DNA of 64,000 nt, taken from contig NZ_JQKW01000012.1 of NCBI RefSeq assembly GCF_000746255.1, positions 24,001 to 88,000 of the forward strand, in the 5' to 3' direction. Positions within the stretch are counted from its first letter, which is position 1. Every line of letters begins with the position of its first letter. Made by a program: the position numbers and the translations under genes. Positions 13,333 through 40,629 of this stretch are shown in pieces. The stretch comes from Thermodesulfobacterium hydrogeniphilum (GTDB lineage: Bacteria; Desulfobacterota; Thermodesulfobacteria; Thermodesulfobacteriales; Thermodesulfobacteriaceae). The notes below the pieces were generated by a model. The model searched no databases. It was not told the DNA's origin and saw only the letters and a list, made by a program, of their open reading frames with translations.

Positions 13333-13540
13333 TTTTTTACCTCCTTTTTTTCAAGCTTTTAAAAAATTTTATCCTATTTTTAATTTTTGCCAATCTTTAA
13401 ATTTTTCTGAAATTTTCTTAATAAGATTTTTTTAAATTTTACTAAAAATAAAAGATATAAAATGTATAAAATATATATAAAAATAAGCTAATAAAAATTA
13501 ATATTTGAATTTTTTCACAAAATCAGTTAAAATTAAAATT

Positions 13541-14776
13541 ATGATAAAAAAAGAAAAACTATTGGAAGTTGCTTTAAATTCTCTTAGGGATGCTATTGTT
13601 ATTTTCAATGAATCTGGAGAAATTGTGTTTTATAACACAAAAGCTAAAAAATTGTTGGATTTACAAAAAAATAAAATATGGGGAAAAGATCCTTTTTGGG
13701 TACAATTGTATAAAAATTACAAAGATGTGAATGAAATTCTTTCTGAATCTAAAATCATAGAGAAAGATGGAAAGAATAAATATATAGAGATTTTTTGTAA
13801 AAAATTAAACAAACTAAATAGTGAAATATACATTTTGATTGTTCTGAAAGATGTTACCGAACAAAAAAATCTTTTAAAAGAACTGGAGATAAGTGAAAAA
13901 AGATTTAAAGATATAATGTATAAATCAGAAGATCCTATTTTATTAATTGATGAATTTTATACCATAATAGAATCTAATGATAGTACAGCTAAATTGTTTG
14001 GGTATAATTCCAGAGAAGAATTACTACAAAAAAGACCTCATCCTTCAGAACTCAGTCCACCTGTTCAATTTGATGGAAGAGATTCCTATGAAAAAGCCAA
14101 TGAGATGATCCGTATAGCTTTTGAAAAGGGATATAACAGATTTGAGTGGATTCATCGTAAAAAAACAGGAGAAGATTTTTATGTAGAAGTTTCTTTAACT
14201 CCTATTATTTATCAAGGTAAAAAATTGTTATATTGCGTTTATCGTGATTTATCTAAGGAAAAAGAATTATATCATCTTTCTATCACTGATCCTCTAACAC
14301 ATATTTATAATCGACGCTATTTTATAGAAAGATTAAAAGAAGAAATAGATAAGGTGGAGAGAAAAAAGAGTAAATTTTCTTTAATAATGTTTGATATTGA
14401 TCATTTCAAATCTGTAAATGATAAATTTGGACATAATGTAGGAGACTTAATTTTAAAAACACTGGTAGACATGGTAAAACAGAGAATTAGAAAAACAGAT
14501 ATTTTTGCTCGTTGGGGTGGAGAAGAATTTATAATTCTTTTACCTGATACTTTTATTCATCAAGCTATTCACCTGGCAGAAGATTTGAGAGAAAGAATCG
14601 AGCTTTATAAATTTCCAATAGTAGAACATATTACTGTTAGTTTTGGTGTAGCAGGGTATTGCGAAGAAGATGATATAGAAACATTGATAGATAGAGTTGA
14701 TGCCATGCTTTATAAAGCTAAATCCGAGGGTAGAAACCGAGTTTGTTGGACCAAAGAATGTCAAGAGGAAATTTAG
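13541..14776 (+). CDS. PAS-PAS-GGDEF diguanylate cyclase
   Basis: About 411 residues from the ATG at 13541; an upstream TTG (13505) would add 12 residues but has no support. Two PAS domains (about residues 5-110 and 120-240) precede a GGDEF domain. The active site is intact as GGEEF, and the inhibitory I-site RxxD (RKTD) lies exactly five residues before it, so the enzyme should make cyclic di-GMP and be product-inhibited. There is no membrane segment, so the signal is cytoplasmic. A c-di-GMP receptor candidate, the PilZ-PyrE fusion, is encoded at 38831-39799. The next gene starts 19 bp before this one ends. Confidence 0.9.
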   Translation: MIKKEKLLEVALNSLRDAIVIFNESGEIVFYNTKAKKLLDLQKNKIWGKDPFWVQLYKNYKDVNEILSESKIIEKDGKNKYIEIFCKKLNKLNSEIYILIVLKDVTEQKNLLKELEISEKRFKDIMYKSEDPILLIDEFYTIIESNDSTAKLFGYNSREELLQKRPHPSELSPPVQFDGRDSYEKANEMIRIAFEKGYNRFEWIHRKKTGEDFYVEVSLTPIIYQGKKLLYCVYRDLSKEKELYHLSITDPLTHIYNRRYFIERLKEEIDKVERKKSKFSLIMFDIDHFKSVNDKFGHNVGDLILKTLVDMVKQRIRKTDIFARWGGEEFIILLPDTFIHQAIHLAEDLRERIELYKFPIVEHITVSFGVAGYCEEDDIETLIDRVDAMLYKAKSEGRNRVCWTKECQEEI

Positions 14777-35994: not shown

Positions 35995-37080
35995 TTAGTC
36001 AAGAATCAACTTTACTTTTGTGCCTTTTCCCACCTCACTTTCTATTATCATATTCCAGCCATGAGCTTTTACAAAATGTTTGACTATAGCCAGTCCTAAA
36101 CCTGTGCCACCAAGTTCCCTTGATCTTGCTTTATCAACCCTGTAAAATCTTTCTCCAAGTCTTGGAATATGTTCCTTGGGAATGCCTATTCCTGTATCTT
36201 CTACTGTAATTATAGAGGGAGAGGAAGTATATTTAATAGTTATCCCCCCTTTTTCTGTGAATTTTATACTATTATCTACAAGATTAATTAGAATTTGAAT
36301 AAGTTTATCCCTATCAGCTTTGATAATAGGTATTTTTTTGCTATAAATTTCTTTTTTTAAATATAAATTTTTCTTTTTGGCTTTATTTTCTAAAGTAGTT
36401 ATTACAGTATCTACTACTTCAAAAAGATTTACTTCAGTCTTATTGATTTGTAATTCCCCAAGCTCTATAGCAGAAAGAATTAATAGATCTTCAACCAAAG
36501 AGTTTAATCTTTCGCTGTGTTTTTTTATAATTTCTAAAAATTTTTTAGCATTTTCTTTATCATCCAGCGCACCCTCGAGTAAGGTTTCTGCAAAGCCTTT
36601 GATAGCAGTAATTGGAGTTTTAATCTCATGAGAAACAGCAGCTACAAAATCTGTTTTAATTTGTTCCAATCTTTTTAGTTTGGTAATATTAAACAAACTA
36701 AGTAAAATTCCCAATTCAAATTTTTCATTAGAAATTTGAATAAAGAAAGGCTTAGCAGTTACAGAAAGAATTCTTTTTTCAGGTTCTTTTATTTCTATCT
36801 CATCTCTTATTTCTTGTGATTTTTTCAAAGCTTCTTCTATAATGGAAAATAATTTTTCATGATAAATAAAGTCCTGTAATTTTTTATTTTCAAAATTTTC
36901 CCCTTTTAAACCAAAAAATTTTTTAAACTGTTTATTTAAAAAAAATATCTCATAATTTCTGTTTATTAAAAGTATAGCCTCTCTAACATTATCTAAAATA
37001 TTATAAATAGTTTCATATTTTTTTATAAGTAAATCTATTAGATCGGGGTCTGTAATTTTATAGAATTTATTAAGATCCAT
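35995..37080 (-). CDS. phoR: PhoR-like sensor histidine kinase, soluble
   Basis: 361 residues. One PAS domain (about 20-135), HisKA with phosphorylated His in SHEIKTPITAIKGF, then HATPase with the N box DNSIKF, G1 DTGIGI and G2 GTGLGLAIV. There is no membrane segment, although classical PhoR has one or two; this kinase should sense a cytoplasmic or membrane-peripheral signal. It directly follows phoB (no gap) and pstS, which supports a role in phosphate starvation sensing; without that context it could be any PAS kinase. Confidence 0.88.
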   Translation of the reverse strand: MDLNKFYKITDPDLIDLLIKKYETIYNILDNVREAILLINRNYEIFFLNKQFKKFFGLKGENFENKKLQDFIYHEKLFSIIEEALKKSQEIRDEIEIKEPEKRILSVTAKPFFIQISNEKFELGILLSLFNITKLKRLEQIKTDFVAAVSHEIKTPITAIKGFAETLLEGALDDKENAKKFLEIIKKHSERLNSLVEDLLILSAIELGELQINKTEVNLFEVVDTVITTLENKAKKKNLYLKKEIYSKKIPIIKADRDKLIQILINLVDNSIKFTEKGGITIKYTSSPSIITVEDTGIGIPKEHIPRLGERFYRVDKARSRELGGTGLGLAIVKHFVKAHGWNMIIESEVGKGTKVKLILD

Positions 37081-37785
37081 TTATTTTATATTATCTGGAA
37101 TATAATATCCTATTCCTCTTTTAGTTTTAATATATTTTGGCTTAGAAGGATCTTTTTCTATTTGAGCTCTTAGTCGTTTAATATGAACATCTATGGTTCT
37201 GGGATTAATATATACGTCTGATCCCCAAATAGCTTCAATAAGTTGTTCTCTGGTATAAACTCTTCCTTTATTTTCTGCTAAATAAAGAAGTATTTTAAAC
37301 TCTGTAGCACTAAGCTCTATGGGCTTATCCTTTAAAGTTACTAAATATTTATCTTTGTTTATCTTTAAATTACCTATTTGAATAATTTTTTCTGTATTTG
37401 GGGAGATTGGCTTGGTTCTTCTTAGAACTGCTTTTATTCTGGCAATAAGTTCCCTGGGACTAAAAGGCTTGGTAATATAATCATCAGCTCCTAATTCAAG
37501 CCCTAAAATCTTATCTGCTTCTAAGGTTTTAGCTGTGAGTATAATAATAGGAAGATGAGCTGTTTTAGGATCTTCTTTTAATTTCTTGCAGAGTTCAAAT
37601 CCACCTATACCAGGAAGCATAATATCTAAAATAATAAGATCGTATTTATTAGAACGGATTTTATTTAATCCTTCTTCACCATTATAGCTATAGTCAACTA
37701 TAAAATTTTCTTTTTTTAAATTATAGGCAACTAACTCTACAATATCTTTTTCATCTTCTATTATTAAAATTTTAACAGATTCCAT
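37081..37785 (-). CDS. phoB: PhoB-like response regulator
   Basis: 234 residues. Receiver domain with phosphorylation Asp in LIILDIMLPGIGG and the KPFSPRELIARI switch region, then an OmpR/PhoB winged-helix DNA-binding domain (about 135-230) with IDVHIKRLRAQIE and the C-terminal RGIGYYI hairpin. It starts 1 bp after pstS ends and is abutted by phoR. Regulation of pstS and itself is the expected role. Confidence 0.92.
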   Translation of the reverse strand: MESVKILIIEDEKDIVELVAYNLKKENFIVDYSYNGEEGLNKIRSNKYDLIILDIMLPGIGGFELCKKLKEDPKTAHLPIIILTAKTLEADKILGLELGADDYITKPFSPRELIARIKAVLRRTKPISPNTEKIIQIGNLKINKDKYLVTLKDKPIELSATEFKILLYLAENKGRVYTREQLIEAIWGSDVYINPRTIDVHIKRLRAQIEKDPSKPKYIKTKRGIGYYIPDNIK

Positions 37786-37786
37786 T

Positions 37787-38818
37787 TTAATAGATTTGAT
37801 TTTGTTTCCAGTAATTTCTAATTTTTTCTTTTACTTCCTCAGGTAAAGGAACATAGGTAAGCTTTTTAGCTATTTTATCTCCATGTTTAAAAGCCCAATC
37901 AAAAAATTTCACTACATCTTTATTAATTTTTAAATTATCTTTAGCCAGAAGAATATAAGTTGCACCTGTTATAGGCCAGGCTTTTTCTCCAGGAGCATTG
38001 GTAAGCCAAGCATAAAAATGTTTTTTAGGATCTAAATCCACGGTTTTAGCTGCTTCCTTTATAGTTTTTTCTTCAGGAGCAACAATATTTCCTTTGGAAT
38101 TTTTAAGTCCTATACAAGTTAATTTATTCTGAAAAGCATAAGCATACTCTACATAACCTATAGTATAAGGGGTTCTTTTTATATAATTAGAAACCCCCTC
38201 ATTTCCTTTTGCTCCTATACCTGTTTTCCATTTTACTGAGGTTCCAAATCCTATTTCTTTTTTCCAAGCAGGACATACCTGACTTAAATAATGAGTAAAT
38301 ATAGCCGTGGTTCCTGAGCCATCGGATCTATAAACAGGAGTAATATTCTTATCAGGAAGTTTTATATCTGGATTTAATTTTTTTATTTCTGGATCATTCC
38401 ATTTAGTAATTTTACCTAAGAAGATTTTACACAAAGTTTCTCCATCAAGAACCAAAGAATTTCTTTTTAGTTCTGGAAGATTTATTACAGGAACTACAGC
38501 TCCTATTACAGTAGGAAATTGCAATAATTTGTTTTTTTCTATTTCTTGAGGAGTAAGAGGTTTATCACTTGCTCCAAAATCAACAGTTCTTTCTATAATC
38601 TGCCTAATTCCTCCTCCAGAACCTATGGATTGATAATTTATCTTTATTCCAGTAAGTTTATAATATTTATCTGCCCAGTTGGCATACAAAGGATAAGGGA
38701 AACTTGCCCCTGCTCCATTTAAGAACTTCTTGTGGCTTGCTTCTTCTTTTTTTTCTTTACATGCTGTTAATCCTAAGCTTATAATTAAACAAAACAATAA
38801 TAAAATTATTTTTTTCAT
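37787..38818 (-). CDS. pstS: Phosphate-binding lipoprotein PstS
   Basis: 343 residues. A lipoprotein signal peptide ends at LTACKEK (Cys20). The PstS fold begins with LNGAGASFPYPLYANWADKY, with phosphate-binding SIGSGGGIRQI, DFGASDKPLT, and YRSDGSGTT. It is the periplasmic receptor of the high-affinity Pst ABC importer; pstCAB are not here. The ribosome binding site AGAGGTG lies 8 nt upstream. Only 12 bp separate it from the PilZ-PyrE gene. Confidence 0.95.
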   Translation of the reverse strand: MKKIILLLFCLIISLGLTACKEKKEEASHKKFLNGAGASFPYPLYANWADKYYKLTGIKINYQSIGSGGGIRQIIERTVDFGASDKPLTPQEIEKNKLLQFPTVIGAVVPVINLPELKRNSLVLDGETLCKIFLGKITKWNDPEIKKLNPDIKLPDKNITPVYRSDGSGTTAIFTHYLSQVCPAWKKEIGFGTSVKWKTGIGAKGNEGVSNYIKRTPYTIGYVEYAYAFQNKLTCIGLKNSKGNIVAPEEKTIKEAAKTVDLDPKKHFYAWLTNAPGEKAWPITGATYILLAKDNLKINKDVVKFFDWAFKHGDKIAKKLTYVPLPEEVKEKIRNYWKQNQIY

Positions 38819-38830
38819 AACTACACCTCT

Positions 38831-39799
38831 TTAGTTTTTGTGTATTTGTTTATATCTTTCTATTATTTCTTTCAAAGTAAAAAAGGCTTGAAATTCATAT
38901 CCTTTGCTTTTTATATTTTCTTTTCCACCTTCTTCTCTATCAATCAAAGCTAAAATTTTCATTATTTTTAATCCTTCTTTTTCAGCAGCCTCTATAGCTT
39001 TTATTACAGACTTTCCTGTAGTTACCACATCTTCTACAATTACTGTGATCATTCCCTTTTTAACATTCCCTTCTATTTGTCTGTGTGTTCCATACTTTTT
39101 AGGTTCTTTTCTTATAAGAAAACCTTCTAAAGGATGTTCTTCTTCAGCTGCTTTTGCTAAAATTCCACATACTATAGGGTCTGCTCCTATACTCATTCCA
39201 GCTACAGCATCCACTTTTAAATATTTTATCTCTTCCCAGAAAAGTGATCCTATTAAATCAAAAGTTTTGGAATAAAGAGTCACCTTTCTACAATCTAAAT
39301 AATAAGGACTTTCCTTACCACTTGATAAAATGAAAGGTTTATCAGGGCTGTATAAGAATGCTCTTTTTATAATATAATCAATTAATTCAGATTTTATAGC
39401 AGAAATATTAAGAAGTTTTAGACTTTTTATTAAGGGATAAGCTTCCCCTAAAAATCTATGAAGCTCTTTCTCTGCTTCTATTTCATCACTCATGTTATAA
39501 AATATGAGATTTTTAAGATGTTTAAAACTTTCAGTAGAAATATAAGTGAATTTTAAACCAAAACCTTTCTCTGGTTCTATTCTAACTACTTTACCTTTGA
39601 GAAAAATTTTTATACTTGGAACTATACCTTCTAAAAAGAAAATAATTGGAATTTCTGTATTAATTTCAGGAATTATAGAGCTTTCAATAAAAACTCCTCC
39701 ATAGCTAATATCTTTAATTTCACCTTTATAACTTTTTTCTTTCCATATAAACTCTACTATAGCTGAAATAGGTATACGAGTAAATTTTCTGGTAGGCAT
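38831..39799 (-). CDS. pyrE: PilZ domain fused to orotate phosphoribosyltransferase
   Basis: 322 residues. Residues 1-100 form a PilZ domain with both c-di-GMP-binding motifs intact: RxxxR as RKFTR (4-8) and [D/N]xSxxG as DISYGG (30-35), plus the closing FGLKF. Residues about 130-322 are PyrE: SSGKESPYYLDCRK, AVAGMSIGADPI, the flexible catalytic loop region KKYGTHRQIEG and the PRPP site VIVEDVVTTGKS (253-264). PyrE joins orotate and PRPP to give OMP in pyrimidine synthesis. The fusion implies that c-di-GMP could tune the enzyme, which I have not seen described. It precedes pstS-phoBR in a run. Confidence 0.9.
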   Translation of the reverse strand: MPTRKFTRIPISAIVEFIWKEKSYKGEIKDISYGGVFIESSIIPEINTEIPIIFFLEGIVPSIKIFLKGKVVRIEPEKGFGLKFTYISTESFKHLKNLIFYNMSDEIEAEKELHRFLGEAYPLIKSLKLLNISAIKSELIDYIIKRAFLYSPDKPFILSSGKESPYYLDCRKVTLYSKTFDLIGSLFWEEIKYLKVDAVAGMSIGADPIVCGILAKAAEEEHPLEGFLIRKEPKKYGTHRQIEGNVKKGMITVIVEDVVTTGKSVIKAIEAAEKEGLKIMKILALIDREEGGKENIKSKGYEFQAFFTLKEIIERYKQIHKN

Positions 39800-39838: not shown

Positions 39839-40120
39839 TTAAAATTTAAACCATCCCCATCTTCTTCTACAGCCTTTACAAACACAACCCTTAGTAGATT
39901 TACCAATTAGTTCTACTTCTATATTTTTAGCAATACTTGAACTTACCACAATTTTACCTATACCATTTTTTAATAAAAAATTTCTTCCCCAAATCCTCAA
40001 TATTTCAAAAGTATCCCCTTTTCGCAACCCCATTGCTTCTATTTTCCTTAAAATAATATCTTCCCCTATAAAATCTTTAATTTTTATTTTGTCTCCACAT
40101 TTACTATCAGATAAAAGCAT
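39839..40120 (-). CDS. feoA: FeoA-family protein with Cys-rich tail
   Basis: 93 residues. An SH3-like FeoA domain (EAMGLRKGDTFEILR, then FLLKNGIGKIVV) is followed by a short basic tail with three Cys, CVCKGCRRRW. FeoA assists the FeoB ferrous iron transporter. No feoB is present in the window. It starts 2 bp after the fur stop, so iron regulation of this gene is likely. The tail may bind metal or an Fe-S cluster (inference). Confidence 0.82.
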   Translation of the reverse strand: MLLSDSKCGDKIKIKDFIGEDIILRKIEAMGLRKGDTFEILRIWGRNFLLKNGIGKIVVSSSIAKNIEVELIGKSTKGCVCKGCRRRWGWFKF

Positions 40121-40122
40121 AT

Positions 40123-40572
40123 TTAAACCATCCCTCCTTTTCTACATTCTAAACATGTTCCAAAAATTTCAAGATGATAACTTAATAAATGAAACTCCTT
40201 TTTTTTGGCATGTTCCTGAATTAATTCTATTAATTTAGGGTCTATTATTTCTTCTACTTTTTTACATTTTATACAGATGAAATGTAAATGAGGTAGTTTA
40301 TTTATTACCACTTCATAATAAGCCCTGCCCTCTTGTTTATAGACTTCTTGAATATAACCAGCTTCTATTAATAAAGGTAGAGTTCTATAAATTGAAGCTT
40401 TAGAGATTTTACTTCCCTTTTTTTTAAGTTCCATATGTAGTTCATCTACATCAAAATGGTCCTTATACTTTAAAATTTCTATTAAAATTTCTTCTCTTTC
40501 TGGAGTATATTTTAATCCTTTACTTTTTATAAAAGCTCTAAAATTTTCTAAAATTTCAGAAATATCTATCAT
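40123..40572 (-). CDS. fur: Fur-family metalloregulator
   Basis: 149 residues from the ATG at 40572. An outer TTG (40602) is rejected because it would fall inside the likely -10 box. Winged-helix DNA-binding domain with KYTPEREEIL and ISKASIYRTLPLL, then the dimerisation domain with metal-binding HLHFICIKC and a second pair CLEC. The feature set fits Fur/PerR/Zur; feoA next to it favours an iron-responsive Fur. Confidence 0.88.
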   Translation of the reverse strand: MIDISEILENFRAFIKSKGLKYTPEREEILIEILKYKDHFDVDELHMELKKKGSKISKASIYRTLPLLIEAGYIQEVYKQEGRAYYEVVINKLPHLHFICIKCKKVEEIIDPKLIELIQEHAKKKEFHLLSYHLEIFGTCLECRKGGMV

Positions 40573-40600
40573 TACTTTATCTCTATTGAGATCTAATTTC

Positions 40601-40629
40601 AATTTTGATAGAAAATTTTATTTTGTCAA
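40601..40629 (-). promoter_or_regulatory. fur-feoA promoter with possible autoregulatory operator
   Basis: TTGACA (minus, 40629-40624), 17-nt spacer, CAAAAT (40606-40601). The stretch 40604-40628 reads as an imperfect inverted repeat (TTGA...AAAA/TTTT...TCAA), which could be a Fur operator overlying the promoter. It sets the fur start downstream at 40572. Confidence 0.4.

Follow-up and report, generated by a model that had tools for sequence, protein, structure and literature searches.

We report a PilZ domain fused to orotate phosphoribosyltransferase (OPRT) in Thermodesulfobacterium hydrogeniphilum, encoded within the 64,000-nucleotide stretch of DNA that was analysed as a whole (the window, which lies on contig 11 of a genome of 1.69 Mb). 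The fusion is the only OPRT above cut-off in this genome, and it recurs in related genera. We suggest, with a probability of roughly 0.5, that c-di-GMP tunes the OPRT allosterically and in cis through the fused PilZ domain, a reading in which binding, allostery and physiological role are all predicted.

The fusion gene and its two domains

The gene occupies 38831..39799 on the minus strand, as do all of its features given below, and reads as one open frame from an ATG at 39799 into a protein of 322 aa with full-length homologues in relatives. The fusion of PilZ to OPRT claimed in the original prediction was borne out by the domain searches. The PilZ domain (residues 3-100; 39500..39793) scored 54.4 bits against PF07238 (E 1.7e-14, gathering cut-off 22.5) and is further identified by its modelled barrel and nearest solved folds, while the OPRT/PyrE domain (residues 156-312; 38864..39334) scored 135.2 bits against NCBIfam TIGR00336 (pyrE; equivalog-domain cut-off 106.8) and has an OPRT fold. 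Pfam also reports a phosphoribosyltransferase domain in the protein, and a helical joint covers about residues 100-147. The two c-di-GMP contact motifs and the PRPP site, said at the outset to be intact, were all found: motif 1 (RxxxR) is RKFTR at residues 4-8 (39776..39790), motif 2 ([D/N]xSxxG) is DISYGG at residues 30-35 (39695..39712), and the PRPP-binding motif is VIVEDVVTTGKS at residues 253-264 (39008..39043), where E256, D257, T260, T261, G262 and S264 are invariant. The flexible active-site loop, RKEPKKYGTHRQIEG (residues 230-244; 39068..39112), contains RKEPKKYGT and aligns to solved OPRTs, with R230, K231, E232, K234, Y236, G237, E243 and G244 invariant.

The TIGR00336 search gave a single match over the cut-off, the fusion itself, in the window's genome and in each fusion genome searched; the remaining matches were weak (about 19-32 bits) and represent other phosphoribosyltransferase families. 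As no other OPRT exceeds the cut-off, the OPRT reaction of de novo UMP synthesis has to fall to the fusion, and PyrF for the next step is present in the genome. From its family we infer that this protein alone supplies the genome with OPRT activity (orotate + PRPP -> OMP + PPi). It should be noted that "committed pyrimidine step", as this reaction was first described, is inexact because OPRT comes fifth in the pyrimidine pathway, to which bacteria commit themselves at aspartate transcarbamoylase or carbamoyl-phosphate synthase.

The catalytic-loop residue that is usually His (H105 of the Salmonella enzyme) is Tyr in 21/21 fusions. This is probably not the mark of a dead or altered OPRT, since Tyr occurs naturally in the OPRT of human UMPS, in genome G077 and in Aminicenantes OPRTs. 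Standalone OPRTs with the Tyr (KKYGT and similar) were seen at L156:4470-5027 and at the Aminicenantes loci L098, L104, L108, L127 and L147. We looked in the fusion genes for an internal translation start that could yield a free OPRT, and no start codon was both conserved and accompanied by a Shine-Dalgarno-like sequence; the ATG found at position 140 in most Caldimicrobium-type genes lacks one.

Distribution of the fusion

The fusion was found in 21 sequences including the window, comprising 12 of 13 same-genus relatives together with two further genera of the family (g2 and g6), and the sole same-genus relative without it is a genome that is 70% complete. The homologues are full-length, at about 52-68% identity, and named copies come from Thermodesulfobacterium (T. 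thermophilum, T. hveragerdense, T. geofontis and others) and Caldimicrobium. An assembly join, which the original prediction had named as a way of refuting it, was rejected because the same fusion recurs in 21 assemblies, including the single-contig genomes G004, G010, G013 and G018; we regard such a join, or a gene read through a frameshift, as extremely improbable.

In a phylum sample of 297 genomes from 199 genera, matches over both domains were confined to g1 and g6, genus g2 lying outside this sample. When about 85,000 species genomes were scanned by motif, 16 records among the best 80 matches listed matched over both domains, all of them from this family and all ranked above the OPRT-only matches. 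The scan was built on the OPRT motifs of this clade, hence it could overlook a PilZ-OPRT fusion that arose independently from another kind of OPRT; the contigs scan gave no match with a single protein as query and matches with an alignment. No plasmid record covers 80% of the fusion query. The survey of PilZ-PyrE architectures proposed earlier thus returns the Thermodesulfobacterium/Caldimicrobium clade only, within the 297-genome phylum sample and the best 80 matches of the scan.

Origin of the fusion

The OPRT tree places all 21 fusions on a single branch (support 100/99, one change), which points to one fusion event in the family, and their sister group consists of the standalone OPRTs of two g5 genomes from the same family (96/82). 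Standalone PilZ proteins of 123 aa from sister genera match residues 1-120 of the fusion from end to end at 36-39% identity, stopping at about residue 120, and residues 135 onward align with whole standalone OPRTs. These end-to-end alignments of both halves indicate that two complete genes were joined by about 14 new residues. The standalone PilZ proteins of g4 and g5 (G016, G017, G019, G027) resemble the fused domain including its C-terminal helix; unlike the fusion they are encoded by a separate gene beside radA, away from pyrE, and their motif 2 is mostly DxAxxG.

Two candidate routes to the fusion were tried and rejected. For a relocation of PilZ from the radA locus, the context gives no sign, as the genes upstream of radA in g4/g5 and in the fusion clade are not homologues. 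Genome G172, with a match spanning profile positions 85-320 and one stop, was considered as an unfused pilZ-pyrE ancestor; its upstream gene is a 306-aa ORF without a PilZ match.

A protein search of the window's genome detected no standalone copy of the fused PilZ type. This genome has five other PilZ matches, and two tandem PilZ genes lie outside the window at G000:C5:314332-314978 (loci L032, L033). Further, proteins of about 650 aa resembling chemoreceptors, with a C-terminal PilZ related to the fused one (29-40% identity), occur in two g6 (Caldimicrobium-type) genomes and one g3 genome (L174:992-2929, minus strand; L175:2077-4050, plus strand; L176:3604-5547, minus strand). The nearest unfused OPRT genes, those of g5 (L022:1492-2115 in G025 and L023:1489-2118 in G021), are preceded at a distance of about 75 bp by a tandem HD / HD-GYP gene (HHERLDGKGYP), whose product is predicted to be a c-di-GMP phosphodiesterase. 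This may be a second link between pyrE and c-di-GMP, seen in two close genomes only.

Gene neighbourhood and c-di-GMP enzymes

The fusion gene sits in a compact minus-strand run, fur-feoA-[fusion]-pstS-phoB-phoR, with downstream same-strand gaps of 0-39 nt. Upstream are a Fur-family regulator (40123..40602, minus strand; PF01475), which is kept upstream in several Thermodesulfobacterium genomes, and directly before the fusion, at a gap of 39 nt, FeoA (39839..40120, minus strand; PF04023). Downstream at a gap of 12 nt follows the phosphate-binding protein PstS (37787..38818, minus strand; TIGR00975, 388.7 bits, cut-off 205), then a PhoB-like response regulator (37081..37785, minus strand; TIGR02154, 267.8 bits, below the cut-off of 296.2) and a PhoR/PnpS-like histidine kinase (35995..37080, minus strand; best NCBIfam matches just below cut-off). 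The placement of the gene between feoA and pstS-phoBR was thereby confirmed, with phoB and phoR as "-like" genes. In the window pstS is followed by the phoB/phoR-like genes (35995-38818), and some relatives have ABC permease genes or a phosphoesterase next to the pstS that comes after the fusion.

The context varies over the clade, being fur-feoA/pstS in several Thermodesulfobacterium genomes and TauE-argJ-surE in Caldimicrobium. The fur/feoA/pst neighbourhood is hence not the conserved part and names no pathway partner, and no gene neighbour conserved across the fusion clade was found as a candidate partner.

A PAS-PAS-GGDEF diguanylate cyclase with an RxxD I-site (RKTD-IFARW-GGEEF) is encoded at 13505..14776 on the plus strand. 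The original prediction had stressed that signal and receptor lie in the same window. The cyclase is there as described; its presence carries little weight, because the genome has 18 GGDEF matches, this one included, and a cyclase gene 25 kb away is then no special evidence, so that proximity does not link signal to receptor. Together with 6 EAL matches, these make genes for c-di-GMP turnover abundant in this genome.

Conservation of the c-di-GMP motifs

Among the 21 homologues, five of the 98 columns in the fused PilZ are invariant (R4, R8, G79, F80 and S91), and at random the two motif arginines would both be included with a probability of (5/98)(4/97), about 0.002. Both arginines of RxxxR are thus present in every fusion. 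[D/N]xSxxG is intact in 16/21, including 13/13 of the window's genus, and has its S or last G replaced in the other five, from four g6 genomes and the one g2 genome, hence not every fusion is constrained to bind c-di-GMP. Both parts of the protein are under purifying selection, which is looser on PilZ: dN/dS was 0.07-0.21 for the PilZ part versus 0.03-0.14 for the OPRT part of the same pairs. The mean entropy was 1.48 versus 0.80, the PilZ part evolving faster. PilZ residues outside the motifs (K64, I87, S91, H94 and K96) are conserved as strongly as the motifs.

These data bear on a structural or neutral role, where PilZ would have been retained because it helps the OPRT to fold, to oligomerise or to stay stable in the heat, and c-di-GMP would be irrelevant or a relic. 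The thermophilic hosts, the faster evolution of the PilZ part and the retention of the fusion in the five homologues with a damaged DxSxxG are all in line with such a role. However, the RxxxR is invariant in a poorly ordered arm where a purely structural role would not need it, motif 2 is intact throughout the window's genus, and dN/dS is well under 1; we consider this explanation unlikely, at about one chance in five.

Predicted structure and proposed mechanism

AlphaFold2 with 40 sequences modelled the whole fusion at pLDDT 91.5 and pTM 0.75, a pTM that leaves the domain orientation unfixed in a model of a single chain without ligand. The PilZ barrel is followed by helices 89-102 and 106-120 and then by a continuous helix 122-147 (39359..39436, minus strand), which leads from the PilZ C-terminal helices and becomes the first OPRT helix, residues 121-134 being the new linker. 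The pLDDT was 82-96 in blocks of residues 101-150. Modelled alone, the PilZ part forms a six-strand barrel with a C-terminal helix (pLDDT 89), and the N-terminal arm carrying RxxxR is poorly ordered (mean pLDDT about 54 for residues 1-10). The nearest solved folds to the PilZ model are PA4608/MapZ (Z 9.4-9.6, including the CheR1-MapZ-c-di-GMP complex) and the PilZ of BcsA (Z 9.5), and a profile comparison likewise puts MapZ/PA4608 nearest among the solved PilZ domains (E 1e-5). Compared with solved OPRTs, the OPRT part reached Z 23.3 and rmsd 1.6 over 168 residues for 5hki (M. tuberculosis OPRT).

The combination of a MapZ-type PilZ with an enzyme that has a flexible loop over its active site leads us to infer cis-allosteric tuning. 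The N-terminal PilZ module, judged from motifs and fold, would bind c-di-GMP, which would clamp the RxxxR arm onto the PilZ barrel. The clamped arm could then shift the C-terminal PilZ helices, and this shift might be passed along the unbroken helix 122-147 to helix alpha-1 of the OPRT, whose movement would reach the dimer and the flexible catalytic loop and change turnover. As to the sign of the effect, we lean slightly towards activation or relief of inhibition because of the BcsA precedent and because a sessile cell with high c-di-GMP needs UDP-sugars; MapZ-like inhibition is a close alternative.

A different possibility is that PilZ recruits the OPRT in a c-di-GMP-dependent manner to a partner or site, leaving the intrinsic kinetics unchanged; an envelope polysaccharide machine or the PyrF/PRPP supply might be such a target. 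MapZ-type PilZ, to which the structure matches, acts by binding a partner protein when loaded with c-di-GMP (PMC6370697), and the conservation of the non-motif residues K64, I87, S91, H94 and K96 also speaks for recruitment. No conserved neighbour gene presents itself as the partner, however, and the joint between PilZ and OPRT is predicted to be helical instead of a floppy tether. We find recruitment to be improbable.

The direction of control may also be reversed, so that the catalytic OPRT additionally senses PRPP, orotate or OMP and tunes the output of a PilZ c-di-GMP effector. In PurR and PyrR, a phosphoribosyltransferase fold has a second role as a sensor, and within the same family there are chemoreceptors with PilZ tails to which the fused PilZ is related. 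E. coli that has lost UMP-synthesis genes, pyrE among them, shows lower curli, attachment and biofilm determinants (PMC3281075), and pyrimidine state is in this sense a biofilm input. Against this, the fusion is the only OPRT and catalysis must therefore be primary, and an output partner is not known; we regard the reversal as quite unlikely. Taking both directions together, it is about an even bet that c-di-GMP allosterically controls a core enzyme of nucleotide biosynthesis through a fused receptor domain or, in reverse, that OPRT substrates tune a c-di-GMP effector.

If c-di-GMP controls the enzyme as we propose, the fusion would hard-wire the main lifestyle second messenger of bacteria directly to de novo pyrimidine synthesis, and in thermophilic sulfate reducers and their relatives the decision between sessile and motile life would be coupled to the consumption of PRPP and the supply of pyrimidine (UDP-sugar). 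The link between pyrimidine synthesis and biofilm found in the literature, that of the E. coli UMP-synthesis genes, is indirect. The fusion protein is small, predicted to be soluble, derived from a thermophile and the sole OPRT of its host, and natural variants exist with motif 2 intact (Thermodesulfobacterium) or damaged (several Caldimicrobium), making the claim testable with one purified protein and natural controls.

Comparison with known systems

Proteins in which PilZ is fused to an enzyme or to a housekeeping protein are already known, as in BcsA and PilZ-DnaK; for the pairing of PilZ with OPRT, our literature search found no paper joining the two. MapZ (PA4608) of Pseudomonas aeruginosa is like the fused PilZ in profile, fold and C-terminal helix and regulates an enzyme when bound to c-di-GMP, inhibiting the methyltransferase CheR1 in trans (PMC6370697). 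It is a free adaptor in chemotaxis, whereas the fused PilZ stands in cis on an enzyme of nucleotide synthesis. The cellulose synthase BcsA is likewise an enzyme with a fused PilZ, which controls in cis the gating loop that covers the active site (review PMC12564702). BcsA is, however, a membrane glycosyltransferase with a C-terminal PilZ that serves exopolysaccharide synthesis, and the present fusion belongs to core metabolism. CsdK1 and CsdK2 of Myxococcus xanthus are PilZ-DnaK chaperones, one of them without half of the binding motif (PMC10313047). They share with the fusion a PilZ on a housekeeping protein and a half-motif loss as in some Caldimicrobium, but they are chaperones reported as two dispensable paralogues, whereas the fusion is a metabolic enzyme and the only OPRT. 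Finally, compared with standalone PyrE and with UMP synthase (PyrE-PyrF), the OPRT domain of the fusion is a normal family member; the known OPRT fusions join it to the next enzyme, PyrF, and here it is joined to a second-messenger receptor.
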